Both the position numbers and the translations under genes were made by a program. Shown here piece after piece: positions 1,335 to 14,859 of a DNA stretch of 64,000 bases. Below the pieces are notes generated by a model that was given only the letters and a program-made list of their open reading frames with translations, was not told where the DNA came from and did not search any database. Source of the stretch: Woeseiaceae bacterium (GTDB lineage: Bacteria > Pseudomonadota > Gammaproteobacteria > Steroidobacterales > Woeseiaceae); assembly GCA_021773115.1 (NCBI GenBank), contig JAJFKS010000017.1, forward strand, positions 1 to 64,000, in the 5' to 3' direction. Each line of letters starts with the position of its first letter. Within the stretch, counting starts at the first letter, position 1.

Positions 1335-4300
1335 CTAGTTGTTCGGCGCGCCATCGTTGATCCAGTCCTTAATCATGTCGATCGTCGCCTGGTCAAGAAA
1401 CGGTCCTCCCTGTGGCATCCGAACACCCACGGCCTGTGTACCTTCGAGCTTTTGAACCAGATAGCTGTTGCCCGAATCGTTGGGGGTGACGCGGTTAAGG
1501 CTGCCAACCTCCAAGCTGGCAACGTTGACCAGCGCGGTGAAACTGGCGTTGGCGCTGGACAGGTTCATGCCCGATGGCAAGTTGCTGCTGGTGGGACCCG
1601 AATGGCAGCCCGAACAGATCGGTGAGAAAACCTGTGTCTGAATCTGTCCCAAAGTTACTGCGACAGCATTCTGCACGGTAACGACCACGTCAGTGGAGAC
1701 ACCGGTGTTGCCGATTGCGTCCTCCGCTTCGGCGGTCAATGTAATACTGCTATTGGACGCCGTTGTTGTATCCCAATCGAAGGTGTAAGGCGCGGTCGTA
1801 TCGCTACCGATAGTCGTGCCATCGGCCAGGAACCGGACAACGGTGACACCCTGGTTATCACTGGCATCGGCCATCAGCGTTACAGTGCCGCTCAACGGTG
1901 AGCCCGGTGATGTGAGAGTGACGACCGGATCGACATTGTCAAACTCGGAAGCGTCGGGCGGAGTGATCTGGCCACGGATTTCACCGCCCGGATTCGCTGG
2001 TGTGTGCGCATTCACATACAGCCCGCCGGCTTTGTAGTCGCCGAGCGCATCAGAATCAAATAAACCGATTGCAGACCAGTGCCCGAGGTTTGCGGCGTCC
2101 TGTATCAGCGGGATGAGCACCGGCCCGTTTTGACCTGCCGGTGCCGTGTGGATGTGTGCCGCGGTCGCATCATCGATGCCACTCGCGTTAAGGTGCAATT
2201 CCACTGCGCCCGTATCGCGATTGACTGTACTCGCCGCGATACCTGCGGCGACGGTGACAACGGCCGGCACTTCCTGATCGCCACTCATGTCAGTGAACAA
2301 CACTTCAACCGGTGGTGGCGCGATCTGGCCACGGAGCTCGCCGGCGGGAATGGCTGGTGTATGCAGATTGACGTAAAGCTGACCGGCCCGATAACTCGTC
2401 ATACCCGCCGCATCAAATTGTGCGCCTGTTACGGACCAGTGACCGGAATTGCCGGCATCTTGTGCGAGTCCTATCAACACGCCTCCGTTCTGCCCGGCAA
2501 AGGCTCGATGAATATGTGACGCGGTCGCGTCATCAACACCGGTGGCATTCACATGCAGTGTTACCGTTCCGGTATCAAGGTCGACCGTACTGGCAGCGAC
2601 AGCGCTTGCAGCGCTCATGTTTGCCGGTACTTCCTGCCCGCCGTTCATCGCGGTGAACAGAACTTCAATCGATTCAGGTGTGACCTGGCCGCGAATCTCG
2701 CCGCCAGGATTGGCAGGCGTGTGAACATTGGCGTAATAACGACCCGAACTCAGCGCGGCCAGCTGTGCCGCATCGGCAGGCGCGTCAATCGCGGACCACA
2801 GTGCGACGTTGCCAGAATCTTGTGTGAGTCCGATTGCCACGCCGCCGTTTGTTCCGGCGTAGCCGTCATGAAGATGTGCAGCAGTCGCATCGTCGATACC
2901 GCTTGTGTTGACGTGCGCGATGACCGTGCCGGCGGCCGTGTTGCCGGTGACGGCGTAGGTGCCACTCGCCGCCGTGCTAACTGCGGGGATTTCCTGGCTA
3001 CCATCAAGGCGACCAAACGCGAAGATAATGCCGTCCGGGATCACCTGGCCGCGAATCTCGCCGCCCGGATTGGCCGGGCTATGAACGTTGATGTAAGTAC
3101 CGCCCGCAAGTACCGCTGAGAGTTGCGTGGCATCAAGCGGCTGTTGCTCCGCGGACCAATGGGCTGGATTACTGCCGTCCTGAGTAAGGCCGAACTCGAC
3201 CGGTCCATTTACGCCACCAAATGCATTGTGCAAATGCGAGGCGGTAGCGTCGTCGAAACCGCGAGTGTTGACGTGCACGGTTAATAATGATGCGGCTTCG
3301 TCGAGTGTCAATGTCGCGAGCCCCTCGGCCGTGGAGTCGAGGCTGGGAACTTCCTGTGCACCGGACAATTCAGAGAACAAAACGACAATTCCCTCGGGTA
3401 ACACCTGGCCGCGAATTTCACCACCCGGGTTCGCCGGGCTGTGAACGTTCACATACAACTGCCCGTTGTCGAACGCTGCAAGCCCAGCAGCATTCAAAAC
3501 GGCGCCTTCAACAAACCAGTGGCCGGGAGTTGTCATGTCCATAGCCAGGCCCACCAGTACCGGGCCGGTTGCGCCGGCATAGGCCTGATGCAAATGGGCC
3601 TGCGTCGCGTTATCAAGATCTGCGACCTGAGCGTGTATGGCAAGCGTACCGCTTGCCGGATCGAGTGTTATAGCCGCGCGTCCACTGGCGCTGCTTTGGA
3701 GTTGTGGTACGGTCTCGGCGCCTGTGAGCGCACTAAACCGCAGCACGAAACCATCCGGAAGAATCTGGCCGCGTATTTCACCGCCGGGCAGTGCGGCCGA
3801 GTGCACGTTGAGGTACAGGGCGCCGGCCAACAGCCGATCAACGCCAGCGGCATCCAGCGTTGAACCGCCCGGTACCGTGAAGATCGTCGGGTCGACGGTA
3901 TCCTGAGCGAGGGGGATCAGTACCGGTCCATTCATGCCGGCGAACGCGTCATGAATGTGAGCCGCTGTCGCCGTAATGCCGCTGGTCGTCAAATTGCCTT
4001 GGACATCTCCGGTCGCGACATTGATCGTGAGGTCGGCCTGAGCCGTGGCTTGTGAGCCTGATGCCGGAACTTCTTCGTTGCCGCTCACCGATATCGCAAA
4101 GTCCTGCACGTTCTTAACCGTGACAGTCGCTGCGGCAGATGTGCCAGTGTTGCCCGCTGCGTCGTCGGCCTCTGCTGTTAATGTATGATCCCCTTCAGCT
4201 TCGCCTGACGTATCCCAGGCCATACTGAACGGTGCCGTGGTGTCAGCGCCGAGAAGCACGCCATCAACGAAGAAACGGACTGCCGTTACGCCGACGCTGT

Positions 4301-4502
4301 CCGTTGCAGTCACTGATAACGTCACCGTTCGATTCACGGTGGCGGCGGGAGCTTGCACTGCCGCAACGGTCGGAGCCGTTGTATCCACCGGGGGCGGCGG
4401 TGGTGGTTGCGCAGCCGAACCCCCGCCACCGCCGCAACCTGCAATGAGGAGTAAAGTCAGAAACGATAAAGTGGTGAGCGGTAATTTGCGTTCGATAGTC
4501 AT
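1335..4502 (-). CDS. CHRD-repeat lipoprotein with Ig-like domains and C-terminal heme domain
   Basis: This 1055-residue protein starts with a lipoprotein signal (lipobox LIAGC, then a Gly- and Pro-rich linker). An Ig-like domain follows (about 40-130). Six CHRD-type units of about 120 residues end at roughly 252, 372, 492, 612, 732 and 851, each with EVP near the start, a central HxH and a closing GGEIRGQ-like motif. A second Ig-like domain spans about 860-945. A c-type heme site CSGCH (963-967) with a candidate distal Met near 1029 ends the protein. CHRD domains are known from chordin and from bacterial exported proteins, but their bacterial role is unclear. It lies 110 bp downstream of the barrel gene and has its own promoter candidate in that gap. 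Location is probably cell surface or periplasm. Function is inferred only as heme-linked redox or adhesion. Confidence 0.9.
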   Translation of the reverse strand: MTIERKLPLTTLSFLTLLLIAGCGGGGGSAAQPPPPPPVDTTAPTVAAVQAPAATVNRTVTLSVTATDSVGVTAVRFFVDGVLLGADTTAPFSMAWDTSGEAEGDHTLTAEADDAAGNTGTSAAATVTVKNVQDFAISVSGNEEVPASGSQATAQADLTINVATGDVQGNLTTSGITATAAHIHDAFAGMNGPVLIPLAQDTVDPTIFTVPGGSTLDAAGVDRLLAGALYLNVHSAALPGGEIRGQILPDGFVLRFSALTGAETVPQLQSSASGRAAITLDPASGTLAIHAQVADLDNATQAHLHQAYAGATGPVLVGLAMDMTTPGHWFVEGAVLNAAGLAAFDNGQLYVNVHSPANPGGEIRGQVLPEGIVVLFSELSGAQEVPSLDSTAEGLATLTLDEAASLLTVHVNTRGFDDATASHLHNAFGGVNGPVEFGLTQDGSNPAHWSAEQQPLDATQLSAVLAGGTYINVHSPANPGGEIRGQVIPDGIIFAFGRLDGSQEIPAVSTAASGTYAVTGNTAAGTVIAHVNTSGIDDATAAHLHDGYAGTNGGVAIGLTQDSGNVALWSAIDAPADAAQLAALSSGRYYANVHTPANPGGEIRGQVTPESIEVLFTAMNGGQEVPANMSAASAVAASTVDLDTGTVTLHVNATGVDDATASHIHRAFAGQNGGVLIGLAQDAGNSGHWSVTGAQFDAAGMTSYRAGQLYVNLHTPAIPAGELRGQIAPPPVEVLFTDMSGDQEVPAVVTVAAGIAASTVNRDTGAVELHLNASGIDDATAAHIHTAPAGQNGPVLIPLIQDAANLGHWSAIGLFDSDALGDYKAGGLYVNAHTPANPGGEIRGQITPPDASEFDNVDPVVTLTSPGSPLSGTVTLMADASDNQGVTVVRFLADGTTIGSDTTAPYTFDWDTTTASNSSITLTAEAEDAIGNTGVSTDVVVTVQNAVAVTLGQIQTQVFSPICSGCHSGPTSSNLPSGMNLSSANASFTALVNVASLEVGSLNRVTPNDSGNSYLVQKLEGTQAVGVRMPQGGPFLDQATIDMIKDWINDGAPNN

Positions 4503-4562: not shown

Positions 4563-4592
4563 GTGAGTGCACTCGAAGCAGAAAAAGGTTCA
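4563..4592 (-). promoter_or_regulatory. ECF-type promoter candidate for the CHRD gene
   Basis: On the minus strand the sequence reads TGAACCTTTT, 13 bases, then CACTCAC. The same TGAACCTTTT-N13-SACYYAC arrangement occurs twice in the intergenic region beside the ECF sigma gene. TGAACC resembles the GAAC-type -35 box of many ECF sigma factors. Position in the only sizeable gap of the heme operon, about 60 bases before the CHRD start, fits a promoter. Confidence 0.5.
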
Positions 4593-4611
4593 AACTGTCG
4601 TGTCGATGAAG

Positions 4612-5700
4612 TTAAAAGAATCCATGCAGCTCGACAAAAAATACCTTTCGGTTTTGTGCGTCGACTTGTGGAATACCGTCATAAAGCCGAAAGCCAAGCC
4701 GCGCCTGAACAAACTGGATCGGCGAGTATTCCCAAACCAGGCTATGGCGAACCTGGTGGTCCTCGCTAATATCATCATTCGGATCGAGAAAGTCGTAACT
4801 GAATTTCAGATTATGTTTGCCGTAGACTGTCCAGTTCGCTTCCAGCAAACCCGCGAACGCATCGGTGCTTACGCCGGGAGATATGTCGTCACTGATCCTG
4901 TCTATTTCTGCCAACCAGGCGACAGGCCCTGTTTTCAAACCGCCGAAAAACCCAAACATCGTGCGGTCGCCGAAATCATCTTCGTTAGTGTTGACGCTAA
5001 CGCCGGCGCGCCACCTTGCCCTCACGTAACTTGAAACGAGACTGATCTGTTTATCCGCGCTGTCCCGTCCCGCGCCGCTGCCATCGGTAAAGGACGCAAC
5101 CACTGACCAAGGCCCTGAGTTGAAGCCACCTTGCAGACCCCTGTCGGTGTTGGCGAAGTTGATGCCAGTTGCTTGCCGAACGAATGCCGTGTCATCCTGG
5201 AGCCGCAGCCCATACGGCAGGTAGAACTCTCCTGCTGCTAAGAACCACCGTCTATCCGTGCTGTTGAGTCGCAGGTAGGCTTCGCGATTTTCGAGATCGT
5301 TCGGAGAGAATTGTTCGTCGATATACAGAGTCAGCCTGTTGGGAATCAGGCTTGCCTCAAGGTAGATAGTGCCACGATTAAAGTCGACATCGGATGTGCC
5401 GCTGCGATTCGGGATGTCAGTTTCGACGAAACTGGCCCGTAGATCACCGCCGATCGACAGCCACTTCGTGACGTCGCCGGTCCATGCCTCGCCGTCGCCT
5501 AATCGATGCGCCGCCAATTCAGATTGCGCGAATACGTTGCCATACACATTGCGTTTTCCGCCGCCCGCCGGATTACTATGGCAGCTTGAACATTGCATGC
5601 CTTTTTGCACCGCGAGGTACGGTTCGGCCTTCGCGGCTTGTCCAGCACTCATCAATATCAAGGCTGTTACGAGCAGCCATACGTATCTGTCGTTGGTCAT
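4612..5700 (-). CDS. Exported beta-barrel protein with an N-terminal heme motif
   Basis: The 362-residue product has a signal peptide (about 1-25, cleavage after QAAKA). A single CxxCH site follows (C37, C40, H41), typical of attached c-type heme. The rest is a run of short amphipathic beta strands ending in an aromatic residue (FVELHGFF), as in outer-membrane barrels. Strand-rich phrases such as LTLYIDEQFSPNDLENREAYLR resemble porin-like electron-conduit or nitrite-sensing families, but I cannot name one. Its start codon directly abuts the stop of the upstream heme lipoprotein gene, so translation is probably coupled. A periplasm-facing heme fused to an outer-membrane barrel suggests electron transfer at the outer membrane. 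This is inference. Confidence 0.8.
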   Translation of the reverse strand: MTNDRYVWLLVTALILMSAGQAAKAEPYLAVQKGMQCSSCHSNPAGGGKRNVYGNVFAQSELAAHRLGDGEAWTGDVTKWLSIGGDLRASFVETDIPNRSGTSDVDFNRGTIYLEASLIPNRLTLYIDEQFSPNDLENREAYLRLNSTDRRWFLAAGEFYLPYGLRLQDDTAFVRQATGINFANTDRGLQGGFNSGPWSVVASFTDGSGAGRDSADKQISLVSSYVRARWRAGVSVNTNEDDFGDRTMFGFFGGLKTGPVAWLAEIDRISDDISPGVSTDAFAGLLEANWTVYGKHNLKFSYDFLDPNDDISEDHQVRHSLVWEYSPIQFVQARLGFRLYDGIPQVDAQNRKVFFVELHGFF

Positions 5701-6897
5701 CTAGCGATTCGCTCCGTTAGCAATCCATTCGCGGATGTCGTCAATGAGAGCCTGATCCAGCACGCCACCACCGAGTGGCATTCTGCCGCCAGCGGCGGCA
5801 GTGCCTTCGATTTTTTGAACGAGGTAACTATTGTCCGGATCGCCAGCAGCGACTCGGGACAGCGCGGGCTGCTGAATACTCGCGACACCGACAAGATTGG
5901 CAAAGCTGGCATCAGCATGGGACAGGTCCATGCCGGCGGGCAGGGTATTCCCGGTCGGACCTGTGTGACATCCGGAGACCGCGCAGTTCGGTGCGAAAAC
6001 GCTCGCCTGCAATGCATCCAATGTCGGCGCACTGATCGGTACCGCCAGCGAAAAGTTCGCTTCGAAATCGCCGCCGGCAGTTCCGTCGCCGGATGGAAAT
6101 GCGCCCGAGAATTCACCATCGAGTGCATTGGCATCAAGATCCATAATGATGGAGGCACCGGAGCCCGGTAATCGCACTCGGTAAGTATCGTCTGCCAAAG
6201 CAACACCTGTCAGATCAAATGTTGCACTCGTTGGAGTTGTTGCGATACTGCTTGCAGTGACACTCGATTCGTTGCCGTCGCCAAACGTTGAATCGCCGCC
6301 GCTGCTTTCGAGCAGAAACGTCATCACATTGACAGTCGATACATCGAGTTCGCGATCAAACATCGCGATTACATTGGCAGGTGCGGCTATGAGCGCGCTG
6401 CCAGGGACAGGAGAAAGGGAGGTCACCCTGATCGGATTCGAAGACGGTATCCGGTCGTCAATGGCTCCGTCACTAATCCACTGCCGGATCACGTCAATCG
6501 AAGCCTGTTGTAGTGGCGGAGCACCCAACGGCATCTGCGCACCGACCGACGCCGAGCCTTCCAGTTTTTGGACTAAGTAACTGCTACCGGGATCCCCGGG
6601 CTCCACGCGTAAAATCGAGGGCGACTCTGAACTCGCGACGCCAACGAGCATGCCGTAGCTATTCGCACTGTCGAGTCGCAATCCTTGCGGTGCAGCGGAG
6701 CCAAGGTGACAGCCGGTTGTTGCGCAATTCGGCTCAATGATATTCACCTGAATTTCGGAGAAGTTCGGCCCAAACGCACCTGGCGGAAGCCTTGGCGGCA
6801 GACCGCTGCCGTCGCCGCCGGTGCAGGAGGCTAACAAGACGGGAAATAGCGCGAAAATTAGAGCGGTCTTATTATTGTTGCATTGCGACAAGTTCAA
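5701..6897 (-). CDS. Lipoprotein with two CX4CH heme-like domains around an Ig-like domain
   Basis: The TTG start at 6897 has GGTGGA six bases upstream. The protein (398 residues) has a lipobox LLASC (Cys25). Domain 1 has C58-x4-C63-H64 and a likely distal Met122. An SbsA/Big_5-like Ig domain spans about 155-285. Domain 2 has C305-x4-C310-H311 and Met373. Both cytochrome-like domains share the phrase SYLVQK.EG...MPLGG with the C-terminal domain of the CHRD protein. CX4CH is a known but uncommon variant of the heme-attachment site. It is the first gene of the operon continuing into the barrel and CHRD genes. A five-codon upstream frame (MVDKN) ends on the TTG start and may affect translation. 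Confidence 0.82.
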   Translation of the reverse strand: MNLSQCNNNKTALIFALFPVLLASCTGGDGSGLPPRLPPGAFGPNFSEIQVNIIEPNCATTGCHLGSAAPQGLRLDSANSYGMLVGVASSESPSILRVEPGDPGSSYLVQKLEGSASVGAQMPLGAPPLQQASIDVIRQWISDGAIDDRIPSSNPIRVTSLSPVPGSALIAAPANVIAMFDRELDVSTVNVMTFLLESSGGDSTFGDGNESSVTASSIATTPTSATFDLTGVALADDTYRVRLPGSGASIIMDLDANALDGEFSGAFPSGDGTAGGDFEANFSLAVPISAPTLDALQASVFAPNCAVSGCHTGPTGNTLPAGMDLSHADASFANLVGVASIQQPALSRVAAGDPDNSYLVQKIEGTAAAGGRMPLGGGVLDQALIDDIREWIANGANR

Positions 6898-6931
6898 TTT
6901 TTGTCCACCATGATTCAGTCCCGATACCTAC

Positions 6932-6962
6932 TGTGGGTGGTGTGGATCCGGCAAAAGGTTCA
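6932..6962 (-). promoter_or_regulatory. ECF-type promoter candidate for the heme-protein operon
   Basis: Minus-strand reading gives TGAACCTTTT, 13 bases, then CACCCAC, placed about 35 bases before the TTG start of the lipoprotein. Its -35-like half is one arm of the inverted repeat shared with the promoter candidate facing the sigma gene. Confidence 0.55.
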
Positions 6963-6985
6963 CTTGGCGCCAAAATGAACCTTTT
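6953..6985. promoter_or_regulatory. Nested palindrome between divergent sigma and heme operons
   Basis: AAAAGGTTCA (6953-6962) and TGAACCTTTT (6976-6985) form a perfect 10-base inverted repeat. Between them sits the palindrome TTGGCGCCAA (6964-6973). The outer arms are the -35-like boxes of two back-to-back promoter candidates. The inner palindrome could be a separate regulator site. Seen directly; the regulatory role is inferred. Confidence 0.6.
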
Positions 6986-7006
6986 CGGCGGAAAAACCGA
7001 CCTACC
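6976..7006 (+). promoter_or_regulatory. ECF-type promoter candidate for the sigma operon
   Basis: TGAACCTTTT, 13 bases, then GACCTAC, lying about 50 bases before the sigma-factor start. The spacing equals that of the two sites in front of the heme-protein genes, which points to autoregulation by the sigma factor encoded next to it. Confidence 0.5.
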
Positions 7007-7056
7007 AACACGAGTAGGCAATTTTCGTAAGACTAAAGGTGTAGTTCACGGCGAAT

Positions 7057-7650
7057 ATGACCCCAGTGGAAAGAGACAATTCGGGCAGCGACAAGTGCGC
7101 GGCGGAGGTACTGCTCTTGCAGCGCGTTGCGGAACGCGATCGTGGCGCTTTCGAGGAACTATTCGAGATCTACCACCCGCGTTTGTTCTCGTTCCTGTTC
7201 CGATTAACGAGTTCGCACGGTGCCGCCGAGGAACTGACCAATGATGTCTTGCTAACCATGTGGAAGGATGCGGGGCGATTCCGCGGTGAGTCGAAGGTGT
7301 CGACCTGGATATTCGGCATTGCGTACCGGCAAGGGCTGGCGCAGCTCAGACAGCGAAAATTCAAGCTACGGTCGATTAAGGATGAAGACGCTATGGTCAG
7401 CGCGGGTGATGCTCGCCTTGAACGCGAAGACTGGATCCGCCAAGGTATCAACGCATTGCCGCCGAAACAAAAGCTCACCGTCATGCTGGTGTATTTTCTA
7501 GGATTGACCTGTGAAGAAGCTGCGGGCGCGAGCGGCGTTCCAGCGAATACCGTTAAGACTCGCATGTTTCACGCGCGAAAGAACATGAAGGAACATCTGA
7601 TTGCGAGTGGCGTTCCCAAAGACTGGCGAAAGGACATATCGAATGACTAG
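7057..7650 (+). CDS. ECF-family RNA polymerase sigma factor
   Basis: The 197-residue protein has the two sigma-70 domains of ECF factors. Region 2 spans about 20-95 (AFEELFEIYHPRLFSFLFRLT, then EELTNDVLLTMWKDAGRF and STWIFGIAYRQGLAQLR). Region 4 spans about 125-180, with the helix-turn-helix LTCEEAAGASGVPANTVKTRMFHARKNM written here only in part: LTCEEAAGASGVP, then TVKTRMFHARK. It would direct RNA polymerase to a small regulon when released from its anti-sigma partner, whose gene overlaps by 8 bases. No strong ribosome-binding site precedes the ATG. Matching promoter motifs face this gene and the divergent heme operon, so both are likely targets. Confidence 0.93.
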   Translation: MTPVERDNSGSDKCAAEVLLLQRVAERDRGAFEELFEIYHPRLFSFLFRLTSSHGAAEELTNDVLLTMWKDAGRFRGESKVSTWIFGIAYRQGLAQLRQRKFKLRSIKDEDAMVSAGDARLEREDWIRQGINALPPKQKLTVMLVYFLGLTCEEAAGASGVPANTVKTRMFHARKNMKEHLIASGVPKDWRKDISND

Positions 7651-8293
7651 CTATACTCCAAACCGGCAGTGCGATGAGTTCCGGAAAAACATTCCGTGGT
7701 ACGTCAATGGGACACTTTGCGATCCGACGGCGGCAGTTCTGCGCGAACATTTGCAAGGCTGCAGTGATTGCCAGAACGATTTTGAAATGCATGCGGAAAT
7801 GCGCGCGTCCGTTCTCGGTCGTGAACTGACGCCAATGAAACCTGTAACCAGGGCTGCAGATATTATCGGAGTCGATGGCGCCGGTCCTGGGGAGCAATCG
7901 GACGCGCGGCCACTTAGGTCACGTTTTATCGCTGTTGCCGCCAGCATTGCAATTCTTGGCGCAGTTCTGATTTTGGCACTATATCGGGAGAATGACGCTG
8001 ACGTCGGCAATCAACTATTCCAGACGGCGACATCAGAGGGTTCAACGGACGGTATAGACTACGTGTTGCAAGTGCAGTTTGAGGAGTCCGTTGCCGATTC
8101 CGAGCGTGTCAGGATTGCGGCGCAACTCGACGGTGCGGTCAAGTGGGTGGTCAATGACAAAGGTGTCTACGAGGTGCATGTGCGACTCGCTGCGCCAACA
8201 TTGCAGATATTGAAGGACTACGAAGAGCACGCTGATGCGCTGACAGGAGTACAATCGGCGAAATTCACAGCGCTCCAGTTACCCATGAGGTGA
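7643..8293 (+). CDS. Zinc-finger anti-sigma factor, single transmembrane segment
   Basis: The start at 7643 overlaps the sigma stop and is preceded by AAAGGA. The 216-residue product has a cytosolic ZAS-type site (C10, then H36-x3-C40-x2-C43, with the usual PWYVNGTL phrase). One membrane segment spans about 95-114, and a periplasmic C-terminal part of about 100 residues follows. It should hold the ECF sigma factor inactive. The periplasmic part (YVLQVQFEESV..., ending before the stop) has an alternating beta/alpha pattern like a small ferredoxin-fold sensor or protease-prodomain-like domain. The next gene encodes an exported subtilase, so signal-dependent proteolysis or prodomain mimicry is possible. 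That last point is inference. Confidence 0.88.
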   Translation: MTSYTPNRQCDEFRKNIPWYVNGTLCDPTAAVLREHLQGCSDCQNDFEMHAEMRASVLGRELTPMKPVTRAADIIGVDGAGPGEQSDARPLRSRFIAVAASIAILGAVLILALYRENDADVGNQLFQTATSEGSTDGIDYVLQVQFEESVADSERVRIAAQLDGAVKWVVNDKGVYEVHVRLAAPTLQILKDYEEHADALTGVQSAKFTALQLPMR

Positions 8294-8298
8294 GGGTT

Positions 8299-9669
8299 AT
8301 GCGGATACTGAAAAGTGCGCTGGCGATTCTTTTTGTTTCCTTTTCAATGTTTTCGGTCGCTAAAGAACTGCCGGACCCCACCCGAGACATCCTGGTTACT
8401 TTTGATAATGATTCGGCAGCATCCTCAAGTGCCAGCCTCGGCGCTCCGTATTCGCACCGCAAGCGCTATACAATCGCACGGCAAGTGCGCCGCAATGCAG
8501 CGGCAATTGCGAAAAAGTATTCGCTTGAAGAAATCGAACACTGGCCGATTCGGTCCTTGGCCATTTATTGCTTTGTCTATCGTGTGCCGGAAGGCGCAGA
8601 CCGGCAATTCATAGTTGAAACGTTGAACGCAGATGTTCGCGTCGAGTCGGCGCAGACGCTGCAAAGTTTCGAAACCAGCATGGGCAAAGCCGATGGCTAT
8701 GACGACACGTATGCGAATCTGCAATACGGGCTGGATGTTCTTGGCATTCCTGCGGCGCACCGGACAACTCGTGGTGCCGGAATTCGGATCGCTATTATCG
8801 ATAGTGATGTTGACAGGTCTCACGAAGACCTTAAGGGGCGCATTCAACGTGTCCGGGTATTCTTGAGTCGAGGGGAGCCAGGTGACCGAAATCATGGCAC
8901 CGCTATCGCCAGCATAATCGGCGCGCGATCGAATAATGCCCTGGGTATCGTTGGTGTTGCACCGGAGGCAACACTTGAACTGTATGTTTCGTGCTGGAGC
9001 GGCGGTGTGGCCAAGTCGGCGATCTGTGACAGCTTCTCTTTGTCCAAGGCAATCGATAACATGCTTGAAAATCCACCGCACGTTCTGAATTTGAGTTTGA
9101 GCGGCCCGTACGATCCGTTGCTGGAGCGGCTGATTCAAAAAGCAATTGAGGCCGGTGTCGTAGTTATCGCCGCCGGACCAACTGAGGGCGCGGTGCAGAG
9201 AGACTTTCCGTCGAATATGGTAGATGTGATCAGCGTAGGTACCGTACCAATCGCCGGTTCGGCAGTCGGCGCGTCGAATGCGACACTATTTGCCCCCGGC
9301 AACCGAATTTTGGTAGCGGTCCCGGCTGACCAGTACGATTTTCGATCGGGAAGCTCGTTGGCTGCAGCGCATGTGAGCGGTGTTGTTGCATTGTTGCTTT
9401 CTGTCGTACCTGATAATTCCTCGGAGACGATACGCAGTATATTGCAACGCTCTCAGGTCGCCGAACGTGGGTCCATTGTCTCGATCAATGCCTGTGCTGC
9501 GTTGAATCTTGCAGGACCCGCCTACCAATGCCACGACGAGGTACAGAGTTCAGAACGGGATTTGTATCTTGAGGACCAGCCGGGATTTGGCCCGGTCCGG
9601 CGTGCTGATAATGGGAACCCATTTGTCGGTGTCATGAATCCGCAAGTCGACGTCAACCCATTTGAATGA
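8299..9669 (+). CDS. Exported S8 (subtilisin-like) peptidase with altered oxyanion site
   Basis: ATG 8299 follows GAGGTGAGGG; a GTG at 8290 overlapping the anti-sigma stop is an alternative. Counted from the GTG, a signal peptide covers about 1-25, a prodomain-like region about 30-140, and the S8 domain about 145-400. The triad is D171 (AIIDSDVD), H202 (RNHGTAIAS) and S356 (GSSLAAAHVSG). The oxyanion-hole Asn expected in AAGN is replaced by Pro (IAAGP, about 297). Activity may therefore be reduced or specialised. The gene is third in the sigma/anti-sigma operon. Its last 120 bases overlap the convergent porin gene and the C-terminal tail looks non-domain. Confidence 0.88.
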   Translation: MRILKSALAILFVSFSMFSVAKELPDPTRDILVTFDNDSAASSSASLGAPYSHRKRYTIARQVRRNAAAIAKKYSLEEIEHWPIRSLAIYCFVYRVPEGADRQFIVETLNADVRVESAQTLQSFETSMGKADGYDDTYANLQYGLDVLGIPAAHRTTRGAGIRIAIIDSDVDRSHEDLKGRIQRVRVFLSRGEPGDRNHGTAIASIIGARSNNALGIVGVAPEATLELYVSCWSGGVAKSAICDSFSLSKAIDNMLENPPHVLNLSLSGPYDPLLERLIQKAIEAGVVVIAAGPTEGAVQRDFPSNMVDVISVGTVPIAGSAVGASNATLFAPGNRILVAVPADQYDFRSGSSLAAAHVSGVVALLLSVVPDNSSETIRSILQRSQVAERGSIVSINACAALNLAGPAYQCHDEVQSSERDLYLEDQPGFGPVRRADNGNPFVGVMNPQVDVNPFE

Positions 9670-10266
9670 CCCCGTAATACCGAGTTGCCAGTATTGGTAG
9701 GCGCCGCCCGTCAAATTCGACGTGTCGTAGTATCCGGCGCCGCCACCAATCGCCCAGATGCTGCTGACAGGCCACTCGGCGTAGAGCTCAAAATTCATCG
9801 TCGAGTTGCCACTGTTGTAGAGGTCCGGCGAATAGGCAAGGTCGAGCCAAATGCGATCCTTGAAATTGGCACCGAATGAAAATTCCCGGTAGTCGTAGTC
9901 GAAATTGCCTGTTTGCCCAGGGAACTGATAGTCGACAACACCTGTCGAGAATTGCCACGAATCCGAAACGTCAAAAGCGTAGCCGGCGTAGTAGTTGAGT
10001 TCGATGTCTCTTTGTACCGATGGGCCGTTGCTAATGTCGATTGTGGAGCCCCACACACCCAGGAAAAAACCGTCTCCGAAGTTAAAATCAGCGCCAATTT
10101 GAAGGGCGGGATCGCTGTCGCTTTGCGTGACACCACGCTTCACGTAGTCGGTCGCCAAAGTGACATAGCCACTGAAATCGGCTGCCGATGACTTCGGACA
10201 GACAAAAAGCAAGGCAATAAACAATGAACTGGGCAGGAGCTTGCTAGTGTGGATGTTGGTCCGCAT
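9550..10266 (-). CDS. TorF-family putative outer-membrane porin
   Basis: Start taken at ATG 10266, giving 238 residues with a signal peptide ending at SSA-ADF. The mature part begins GYVTLATDYVKRGVTQSDSD, the hallmark start of TorF/Gcw_chp proteins (translations usually read ATDYxxRGxSQ). It continues as an even beta-strand pattern and ends with the C-terminal strand SRLVLKIQIPF. It probably forms a small outer-membrane barrel; the substrate is unknown. The 3' end overlaps the subtilase gene on the other strand by 120 bases. Upstream, 10267-10662 holds no gene that I can support. Confidence 0.85.
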   Translation of the reverse strand: MRTNIHTSKLLPSSLFIALLFVCPKSSAADFSGYVTLATDYVKRGVTQSDSDPALQIGADFNFGDGFFLGVWGSTIDISNGPSVQRDIELNYYAGYAFDVSDSWQFSTGVVDYQFPGQTGNFDYDYREFSFGANFKDRIWLDLAYSPDLYNSGNSTMNFELYAEWPVSSIWAIGGGAGYYDTSNLTGGAYQYWQLGITGSFKWVDVDLRIHDTDKWVPIISTPDRAKSRLVLKIQIPF

Positions 10267-10662: not shown

Positions 10663-11640
10663 ATGATCAACATTCGTAACATCAACCTGTGGCTGCAGTT
10701 GGCAATCCTGGTGACGCTGATTTCGAGCAGCACCCTTGCTGCTGCGACCCCACCGCAAAAGGCCGTGCTCGTTACGGGCGCAAACAGCGGCATCGGTCGA
10801 ACGATCGCTTACCGACTGGCCGCAGAAGGCTATTTCGTCTACGCTGGCGCCCGAAAAAAGCACGATATTGAGACACTCAGCGCCGTCGAGAACATGCAAG
10901 GCCTGCGGCTCGATGTGACGAATCAGGCCGATATCGATACGGCGGTGAAGCTTGTCAGGGCGGAAGGTCGTGGTCTGTATGCGCTTGTGAACAATGCCGG
11001 TGTCGTCGTGATGGGACTGCTCGCGGAAACAGACGAGTCGGAGCTCGACTTCCTGTTCGACGTGAACGTTTATGGACCGTACCGAATGGTCAAGGCCTTT
11101 GCGCCACTGCTGGTCGATTCAAAAGGGCGGGTAGTAAACATCAGTTCGATGGCGGGCATCATGTCGCCACCTGCTTACGGTGTCTACAGTATGAGCAAGC
11201 ATGCGATCGAGGCATTTACGGATACGTTGGCATACGAGTTAGGAACAGTTGGCGTTGGTGTGAGTGCGATTGAGCCAGGGCCATTCAACTCGAATGCGGC
11301 CGCATCAAATTGCGAACGTCGACGGAAGCAAGGCGATAACGCAAGCGAATCGCTGATGCCGGAACTGGCCGCAGAGATCGCGACACTTTGTGGCGACACC
11401 ACGCAGTACCCGGAACCTGGTCCCGTTGCCGATGCCGTCCTGCAAGTTCTCACGTCGGACAAACCGAAAGCGCGTTATCTTGCACCGAGCGACCCGCGGC
11501 AGGCGGAATTCATAGCGCGCAGTATTTTGCAGGACCTGGCCGATCTCAGCAGCGGACAGACATACAATTTCACCAGGGACGAACTGATGGGCATGCTCGA
11601 TGATGCGTTGGGAGACGCCGAAGCATCCAACGACGATTAG
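10663..11640 (+). CDS. Short-chain dehydrogenase/reductase with signal peptide
   Basis: ATG 10663 follows CAGGAGAAC. The 325-residue protein begins with an apparent signal peptide (about 1-28), unusual for this family. A Rossmann fold follows: TGANSGIG (38-45), NNAG in LVNNAGVVV, the catalytic Ser in NISSMAG and YSMSK (the YxxxK pair) in YGVYSMSKHAIEAF. The substrate cannot be told; the C-terminal part (about 230-325) carries a long helical extension. The gene stands alone. An extracytoplasmic NAD(P)-dependent enzyme would need explaining, so the N-terminal segment may instead anchor the enzyme to the membrane. Confidence 0.88.
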   Translation: MINIRNINLWLQLAILVTLISSSTLAAATPPQKAVLVTGANSGIGRTIAYRLAAEGYFVYAGARKKHDIETLSAVENMQGLRLDVTNQADIDTAVKLVRAEGRGLYALVNNAGVVVMGLLAETDESELDFLFDVNVYGPYRMVKAFAPLLVDSKGRVVNISSMAGIMSPPAYGVYSMSKHAIEAFTDTLAYELGTVGVGVSAIEPGPFNSNAAASNCERRRKQGDNASESLMPELAAEIATLCGDTTQYPEPGPVADAVLQVLTSDKPKARYLAPSDPRQAEFIARSILQDLADLSSGQTYNFTRDELMGMLDDALGDAEASNDD

Positions 11641-13620: not shown

Positions 13621-14859
13621 TTACTCGTAACGCAACGCATCGATCGGATCCAGTCGCGCGCCCTTGTAGGCCGGCACTAGTCCGGCGAAAACGCCGACGA
13701 GTATTGAAATAACAATAGAAGTGATCAGGATACCCGGCGAGATACTCGCATCCATCGTGCCGGTCGCGGTCAACATGGCCGCGACGCCAGCCGAAATCGC
13801 GACACCAACCAAACCACCGATCAGGCAGATGGCTGCTGATTCGAATAAAAACTGCATCAGGATGCTGCGTCGTTTTGCGCCGATCGCTTTGCGAATGCCA
13901 ATTTCACGCGTTCTTTCCGTGACCGAGACAAACATGATGTTCATCACACCAATGCCGCCGACGAACAAAGAAATACTTGTAATGAGAAGCCCGATGCCGA
14001 CAACCGCACCGACAATATTATTGAAAGCGCCCAGCAGTGAATCCAGTTTGTTGATCGAGAAATTGCTTTCCTCTGTAGGTCGCAGTTTACGAATCTTGCG
14101 CATTTCTCCGATGACTTCGTATTCAAGTTCACGCAAGTCGCTGACCTCAGGAGATTTGACGGCAATATCCACATCGGTGAAACGCCTGCCACCAAAGGAC
14201 TTGACGAAAGTCGAGATCGGGACGACCACCTGGCGATCAAAGTCCGGCCCGCCCATCGTATTGCCGCCTTGCTCTTCAAGCACGCCTGCGACTCGAAATA
14301 CAGACCGGCCGACATTTATCTCTTTGTTGATCGGGTTCACCGTGCCAAACAGATCTTCAGCGACAGCATGCCCAAGGATGACGACGTTCTTCTTATAGCG
14401 AACATCAAACTCCATCAGAAATCGGCCGACTGCGGGCATGCGGTTCGTAATGATGGGCATTTTCTCGGTCGTTCCGATGACGGTTATGCCTTCCATAGTC
14501 GAGGAACGAAAACGTAAGTCGCGGCGCGTATTCATCGACGGGTTTACAATCGCGTGACCTTTGAAAGCGGCCTCAAGCGCTTCTGCTTCAGCAAGATTCA
14601 GATTAGGCCTGTTTCGGAACGAGAAGAAATCATTTATCGTGATCCACGGCATTCTGGACACGTAAATAACGTCTGCGCCAACAGCACCAGCGCCCTGGCG
14701 AAAGGCCGACTGCATGCCGTTAAACGCGGACATCGTGGTTGTCACAGCAACGATGCCGATGATGATCCCCAACGTTGTAAGTATACCGCGTGCCTTGTTC
14801 GCAATAATGGCGTTCCAGGCGATTTTCAGTGATTCGACGATTTCCTGTAACAGCTTCAT
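13621..14859 (-). CDS. ABC transporter permease, MacB/FtsX type (first)
   Basis: The 412-residue permease has the same plan as its neighbour: an N-terminal membrane helix ([19 protein letters not shown]), a periplasmic domain and three C-terminal helices with [20 protein letters not shown], then IRKAIGA and the tail [10 protein letters not shown]. Its ATG overlaps the stop of the ATPase gene by four bases (ATGA), so the two are translationally coupled. Both permeases with one ATPase and one adaptor make a MacAB-like tripartite export system, which would use a TolC-type outer-membrane channel not found in the window. Confidence 0.92.

Follow-up and report, generated by a model that had tools for sequence, protein, structure and literature searches.

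A predicted local ECF sigma factor regulon with three promoters at one locus of a Woeseiaceae genome

Genes and predicted promoters of the locus

The stretch of DNA analysed here (the window) comprises 64,000 nucleotides of a Woeseiaceae bacterium genome (GenBank assembly GCA_021773115.1, contig JAJFKS010000017.1, positions 1 to 64,000). It encodes an extracytoplasmic function (ECF) sigma factor, followed on the plus strand by a membrane anti-sigma factor and an exported subtilase, and on the minus strand a heme-type lipoprotein, an outer-membrane protein and a large CHRD protein. Three copies of one motif, which are predicted to be ECF promoters, precede these genes. The features are as follows.

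6976-7005, plus strand: predicted ECF promoter of the sigma/anti-sigma/subtilase operon; exact match, with -35 TGAACC, a 17-base spacer and -10 GACCTAC
6933-6962, minus strand: predicted ECF promoter for the operon of the cytochrome lipoprotein and the outer-membrane protein; exact match
4563-4592, minus strand: predicted ECF promoter of the CHRD gene; exact match, lying between the outer-membrane gene and the CHRD gene
7057-7650, plus strand: ECF sigma factor of 197 aa with regions 2 and 4 (Pfam Sigma70_r2, 3.7e-12; Sigma70_r4_2, 2e-11)
7643-8293, plus strand: membrane anti-sigma factor of 216 aa, with a zf-HC2 domain (8.7e-10), one predicted membrane helix and, in a structure model, a C-terminal b-a-b-b-a-b periplasmic domain
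8299-9669, plus strand: exported subtilase-like (S8) protease of 456 aa with an N-terminal prodomain (Peptidase_S8, 3.4e-30; alignment to solved subtilisins)
5701-6897, minus strand: lipoprotein of 398 aa with two CX4CH heme-type motifs and a Big_5 domain (Pfam and sequence reading)
4612-5700, minus strand: predicted outer-membrane protein of 362 aa with one CXXCH motif; its gene abuts the lipoprotein gene
1335-4502, minus strand: exported protein of 1055 aa with six CHRD stretches, two Big_7 domains and one CXXCH (CHRD, 3.5e-161; Big_7, 6.9e-30)

The product of 7057-7650 possesses regions 2 and 4 only and is about 200 aa long, as is characteristic of the ECF (group IV sigma-70) factors. The anti-sigma factor contains a zinc-finger HxxxCxxC domain and its gene adjoins the sigma gene, which places it in class I (ZAS). 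The stop codon of the sigma gene overlaps the anti-sigma start, and the subtilase gene begins a few bases past the anti-sigma gene. An earlier interpretation of this DNA, made before any database search (the sequence-only reading), had named a heme-type lipoprotein, an ECF sigma factor and a CHRD protein, and all three names were borne out by Pfam and motif reading. The usual motif of heme proteins is CXXCH; the two motifs of the lipoprotein are CATTGCH and CAVSGCH. No Pfam family was matched by the outer-membrane protein.

The motif in the window and in the host genome

A pattern search of the window for TGAACCTTTT-N13-SACYYAC gave three copies with zero mismatches and the same spacing, and TGAACC is the -35 element of all of them. 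The sequence-only reading had reported three identically spaced copies. The copies and their exactness stand, while two of the ends were off by one base (6932 is corrected to 6933, and 7006 to 7005). A fourth match with three mismatches, at 14829-14858, is at the chance level (shuffled windows at up to three mismatches: mean 0.75, standard deviation 0.77). The motif was found neither upstream of the neighbouring Gcw_chp porin gene, the outer-membrane gene or the gene at 10663 nor within the sigma operon, where the best sites had five to six mismatches. If the plus-strand copy is a promoter, the transcript of the sigma operon should start at about 7010-7013.

The host genome (4,412,061 bases) was searched with the long pattern at up to three mismatches, and 29 matches were obtained: three exact, none with one or two mismatches and 26 with three. 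The reversed pattern gave 78. A looser core, TGAACC-N17/18-NACYYAY, matched three times, exactly at the window sites, and its reversed control matched five times. Because the looser core matches only these three sites genome-wide, the regulon, if any, is local. A regulon spread over the host genome was rejected, since both searches show only three sites at one locus.

Comparison within the family

Among named sequences, the closest relatives of the anti-sigma protein are assigned to the Woeseiaceae. The family sample consisted of 107 Woeseiaceae genomes, 34 of which have the sigma gene (E ≤ 1e-20) and 73 of which do not. Within 350 bases upstream of the sigma gene, the long pattern was present without mismatch in 22 of the 34 loci and with at most one mismatch in 27, and the reversed control always had at least four mismatches. 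The minus-strand site directed towards the lipoprotein gene was exact in seven of the 34 loci and within one mismatch in 21. In relatives, the two central sites lie 12 to 67 bases apart.

The pattern TGAACCTTTN{14,15}NACYYAY gave 43 matches in 26 of the 107 family genomes, versus two for the reversed pattern. Sorted by hand, 36 of them lie at the sigma locus, two before CHRD genes on other contigs and five elsewhere. A match is present in 24 of the 34 genomes with the sigma gene versus two of the 73 without it (Fisher p = 6.6e-14), and both matches in the sigma-less genomes sit inside coding sequence.

Relocated CHRD genes were also informative. Full orthologues of the CHRD protein were found in 13 family genomes at E ≤ 1e-120, and 12 of them have a readable upstream region (G078 was omitted because its contig begins inside the gene). 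The motif precedes the orthologue exactly in eight of the 12 and with one mismatch in two, always 87-95 bases ahead of the start codon. In three genomes (G058, G076 and G099), the CHRD gene lies away from the cytochrome genes and has retained the motif upstream.

Some individual loci of the family deserve mention. One of the 36 matches at the sigma locus (in G008) has a different lipoprotein downstream, in the slot of the CHRD gene; at L107 (about 3000-4272), it is an exported lipoprotein that occupies this slot behind the motif. In L122 (4984-5752), a Crp/Fnr-like gene with a multiheme cytochrome gene as its neighbour has the motif 31 bases upstream. One genome has nearly the same sequence as its predicted CHRD promoter before an 80-aa open reading frame (ORF) on another contig (L124, 393-715).

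Conservation in the order and beyond

The order sample (Steroidobacterales) contained 396 genomes. The sigma factor was matched in 112 of them at E ≤ 1e-28, of which 78 are outside the family, and 60 of these 78 were compared. The core stands before the sigma gene exactly in 36 of the 60 loci, and in 46 when up to one mismatch is allowed; the reversed control gave no exact match. The spacer has 17 bases in 41 of the 46 sites and 18 in the other five. The AAC of the -35 element is invariant in the order and family sites that were scored. The T-run after TGAACC is conserved mainly in the family of the window and is not conserved in other families of the order. The order loci differ from the window in gene order; therefore, a shared neighbourhood alone is insufficient to account for the agreement.

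Over the whole of the 60 order loci (437,128 bases), there were 55 exact core matches, versus none in the control. They precede the sigma gene (37), lipoprotein-cytochrome genes (seven), CHRD genes (four), porin-like genes (two) and others (five). Each site was assigned to the longest ORF with a start within 320 bases; for the plus-strand site of L161, the gene was called CHRD from an overlapping match, and the longest ORF drawn there is in another frame.

A metagenome-assembled genome of the Burkholderiales encodes a relative of the sigma factor with 38% identity, and an exact copy of the motif lies upstream. At this locus, the subtilase is replaced by an ORF labelled by eye as caspase-like (L134, 4500-5798), which comes after the anti-sigma gene. 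In the 369 genomes searched across the class, the motif had eight matches outside the host genome and the control had ten, which corresponds to background, and none of the eight loci encodes relatives of the window genes. Use of the motif throughout the class was rejected on these counts.

Interpretation of the motif

Sequence comparison establishes that the motif exists, that its geometry is fixed, that it tracks the sigma gene and that relocated target genes retain it. From these results, we consider it very likely that the ECF factor encoded at 7057-7650 uses the three copies as its promoters, one each for its own operon, that of the lipoprotein and the CHRD gene. The sequence-only reading had proposed that the ECF factor switches on its own operon and the exported heme and CHRD genes, and the comparisons of genome, family and order all support this. 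Its suggested checks included a search of the whole genome, a test for enrichment upstream of genes and a comparison of orthologous intergenic regions. The results of all three agree with an ECF regulon, which is narrowed to three promoters in the host. Of the 43 family matches, 38 are at the sigma locus or before a CHRD orthologue.

Several observations weigh against this interpretation. Four of the 34 family loci and 14 of the 60 order loci lack a core site within one mismatch in the 350 bases upstream of the sigma gene. Five of the 19 extra order sites precede none of the expected genes. Among the five family matches located elsewhere, two are those within coding sequence of sigma-less genomes and three precede unrelated-looking genes. 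Two of the 12 CHRD orthologues (G079 and G096) are motif-free, and the gap that separates them from the outer-membrane gene is very short. Finally, PMC8103513, which states that about 55% of ECFs are autoregulated, names a -35 element with AAC and a -10 element with CGT as classical features of ECF promoters; the predicted promoters possess the AAC, but their -10 element, NACYYAY, lacks the CGT described there as typical.

The shared sequence may instead be the operator of a separate DNA-binding regulator, with the central inverted pair as a dimer site. The two central copies do make up a perfect inverted repeat with 13 bases between its arms, and the central gap is 12-14 bases in several close relatives. 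However, this gap is 25, 65 and 67 bases in L109, L105 and L106, respectively, and because the interval between the sites varies over the range of 12-67 bases, two promoters are indicated and not one rigid operator. Only one copy stands before the CHRD gene. The motif itself has no dyad symmetry and is directed at a gene, and the NACYYAY element keeps its distance within one base. The presence of the motif also depends on the presence of the sigma gene. An operator is therefore improbable. The sequence-only reading had mentioned a regulator-binding half-site as its alternative; it is disfavored by the variable gap, the non-dyad motif and the constant spacing of 17 or 18 bases, and we rejected it because the central spacing is not conserved and the CHRD site stands alone. 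That the sites are ordinary promoters of another sigma factor, with the ECF gene as merely one target, is more improbable still: the architecture of a promoter alone is silent on which sigma factor reads it, but the motif is nearly absent from the sigma-less family genomes and at background across the class.

On the interpretation of the copies as promoters of the ECF factor, the circuit may work as follows. RNA polymerase with this sigma factor would start at three sites, each composed of a -35 TGAACC (followed by a T-run in the family), a spacer of 17 or 18 bases and a -10 NACYYAY. The predicted promoter before the sigma gene itself is the arrangement expected for positive autoregulation, and the factor would turn on the sigma/anti-sigma/subtilase operon in a positive feedback. 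It would induce the CHRD gene jointly with the operon that encodes the diheme lipoprotein and the outer-membrane protein. The membrane anti-sigma factor would hold the sigma factor, and its periplasmic, prodomain-like part may be released or cut under the control of the neighbouring exported subtilase.

The periplasmic domain of the anti-sigma factor

In the predicted structure, the C-terminal domain of the anti-sigma factor has a b-a-b-b-a-b topology, with predicted local distance difference test (pLDDT) values mostly of 77-91 per ten-residue block. Its best structural matches are ferredoxin-like folds of the RAM/ACT type, and no subtilase prodomain is among the matches listed. For a comparison of sequence profiles, 92 anti-sigma ORFs were picked and 85 were kept; at least one kept row (L120) is a pick in the wrong frame. 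The profile of the 85 C-termini matched that of the prodomains of the neighbouring subtilases with a probability of 85.7% and a score of 36.4 (38.8 with the order rows only and 28.6 with the family rows only). The reversed control scored 13.3, and 60 column shuffles scored at most 15.3. As a further control, one stretch of the subtilase catalytic domain reached 28.2 (probability 29%, 26 columns), which is above the shuffles and below the prodomain. A profile comparison limited to close homologues gave no link between the anti-sigma factor and the prodomain.

Pfam searches with 28 sampled anti-sigma domains pointed to one family. Fourteen of the 28 matched Fervidolysin_NPro-like (PF22148) at E ≤ 10, the best at 5.1e-06, and every other Pfam family was matched by at most one of the 28. 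One of the matches to PF22148 scored 27.2 bits against a cut-off of 21. The anti-sigma factor of the window has no Pfam match beyond zf-HC2, and it does not match PF22148 by itself. A sequence search of solved structures with the 28 domains found no subtilase prodomain. Four prodomain segments from the present subtilase family did not match any Pfam family either.

Judged by these profiles, the periplasmic domain of the anti-sigma factor appears to resemble a subtilase prodomain. Fervidolysin-type prodomains belong to the family that half of the sampled domains match; however, the domain here ends a membrane anti-sigma factor and is not placed ahead of a catalytic domain. We give about even chances to another explanation, in which the C-terminal domain is a generic ferredoxin-like domain that responds to a ligand or to redox conditions, the subtilase being no more than a product of the regulon. 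The ligand-binding RAM/ACT folds among the best structural matches, the sole zf-HC2 match of the window protein and the comparison limited to close homologues are in accord with a generic sensor. It does not readily explain the score of the broad profile comparison relative to its shuffles or the matches to Fervidolysin_NPro-like.

The subtilase and a possible switch

The catalytic triad of the subtilase (Asp168, His199 and Ser353) is kept, while the position of the oxyanion-hole Asn, which an active S8 protease would have, is occupied by Pro294. The triad is invariant in 49 of 49 aligned homologues, and across 87 loci the only exceptions are gaps. None of the 49 homologues has the oxyanion Asn (48 have other residues, Pro in 31 sequences, and one has a gap). 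At the loci, it is absent from all 32 family subtilases and present in one of the 55 order subtilases. Loss of the oxyanion Asn strongly slows subtilisin. Therefore, the most likely role of a subtilase that lacks this residue may be to bind the anti-sigma domain or to cut it slowly, although we hold this assignment only tentatively.

These features could belong to an ECF switch of unrecognised design, which we regard as possible but doubtful. The anti-sigma factor would end in a copy of the subtilase prodomain, and the subtilase would bind it like its own prodomain and cut it slowly or not at all. The sigma factor would then be freed by capture, competition or slow cutting. The predicted model of the subtilase (mean pLDDT 45.5) was too poor to use. 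Lipobox-like signals were seen in one of 32 family and 12 of 55 order subtilases in a crude count, which was not used.

Relation to known systems

RpoE-RseA and SigW-RsiW are types of autoregulated pairs of an ECF sigma factor and a zinc-finger (class I) anti-sigma factor. The present system is similar to them in the sigma factor with regions 2 and 4 only, the HxxxCxxC membrane anti-sigma factor encoded directly after it, the AAC in the -35 element and the predicted promoter before the sigma factor's own gene. It differs from them in its -10 element NACYYAY without CGT, in the three predicted promoters at one locus and in the subtilase as the third gene of the operon.

ECF54 factors are described in PMC8999054 as having a context of subtilase, carboxypeptidase or CHAT proteins and as working without an anti-sigma factor. 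A subtilase gene beside the ECF gene is common to both systems. In contrast, the locus described here has a zf-HC2 anti-sigma gene that overlaps the sigma gene, and its protease has a signal-type N-terminus.

In a literature search whose coverage left out most subscription papers and the 2021 ECF reclassification, no description was found of the sigma/anti-sigma/subtilase trio, a prodomain-like anti-sigma factor or this promoter. An autoregulated ECF circuit as such is ordinary. Its confinement to one locus, its conservation and the prodomain-like anti-sigma factor are unusual.

The locus provides a complete candidate regulon for an ECF family that is spread over the order (112 of 396 sampled genomes), with a predicted promoter sequence that is precise enough for direct testing. 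A heme lipoprotein, a porin-like protein and CHRD proteins would be tied to one signal; we know of no established role of CHRD proteins in bacteria. If the prodomain-like sensor is true, a protease/prodomain pair would have been reused as a transmembrane switch.

Neighbouring features

Two further features of the window were recorded.

6953-6985, no strand assigned: inverted repeat formed by the two divergent -35 regions, AAAAGGTTCA-N13-TGAACCTTTT, read from the sequence; its spacing is not conserved in relatives
9661-10266, minus strand: putative porin of the Gcw_chp / TorF type, whose gene is convergent with the sigma operon (Gcw_chp, 1.3e-22); the best upstream site has five mismatches

The gene of the Gcw_chp/TorF-type porin is motif-free in the window, and it adjoins the sigma operon, on either side, in most of the loci compared. 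Past the CHRD gene, positions 300-1300 of the window carry the apparent remnants of a decayed transposase gene, putatively of the IS6 type.

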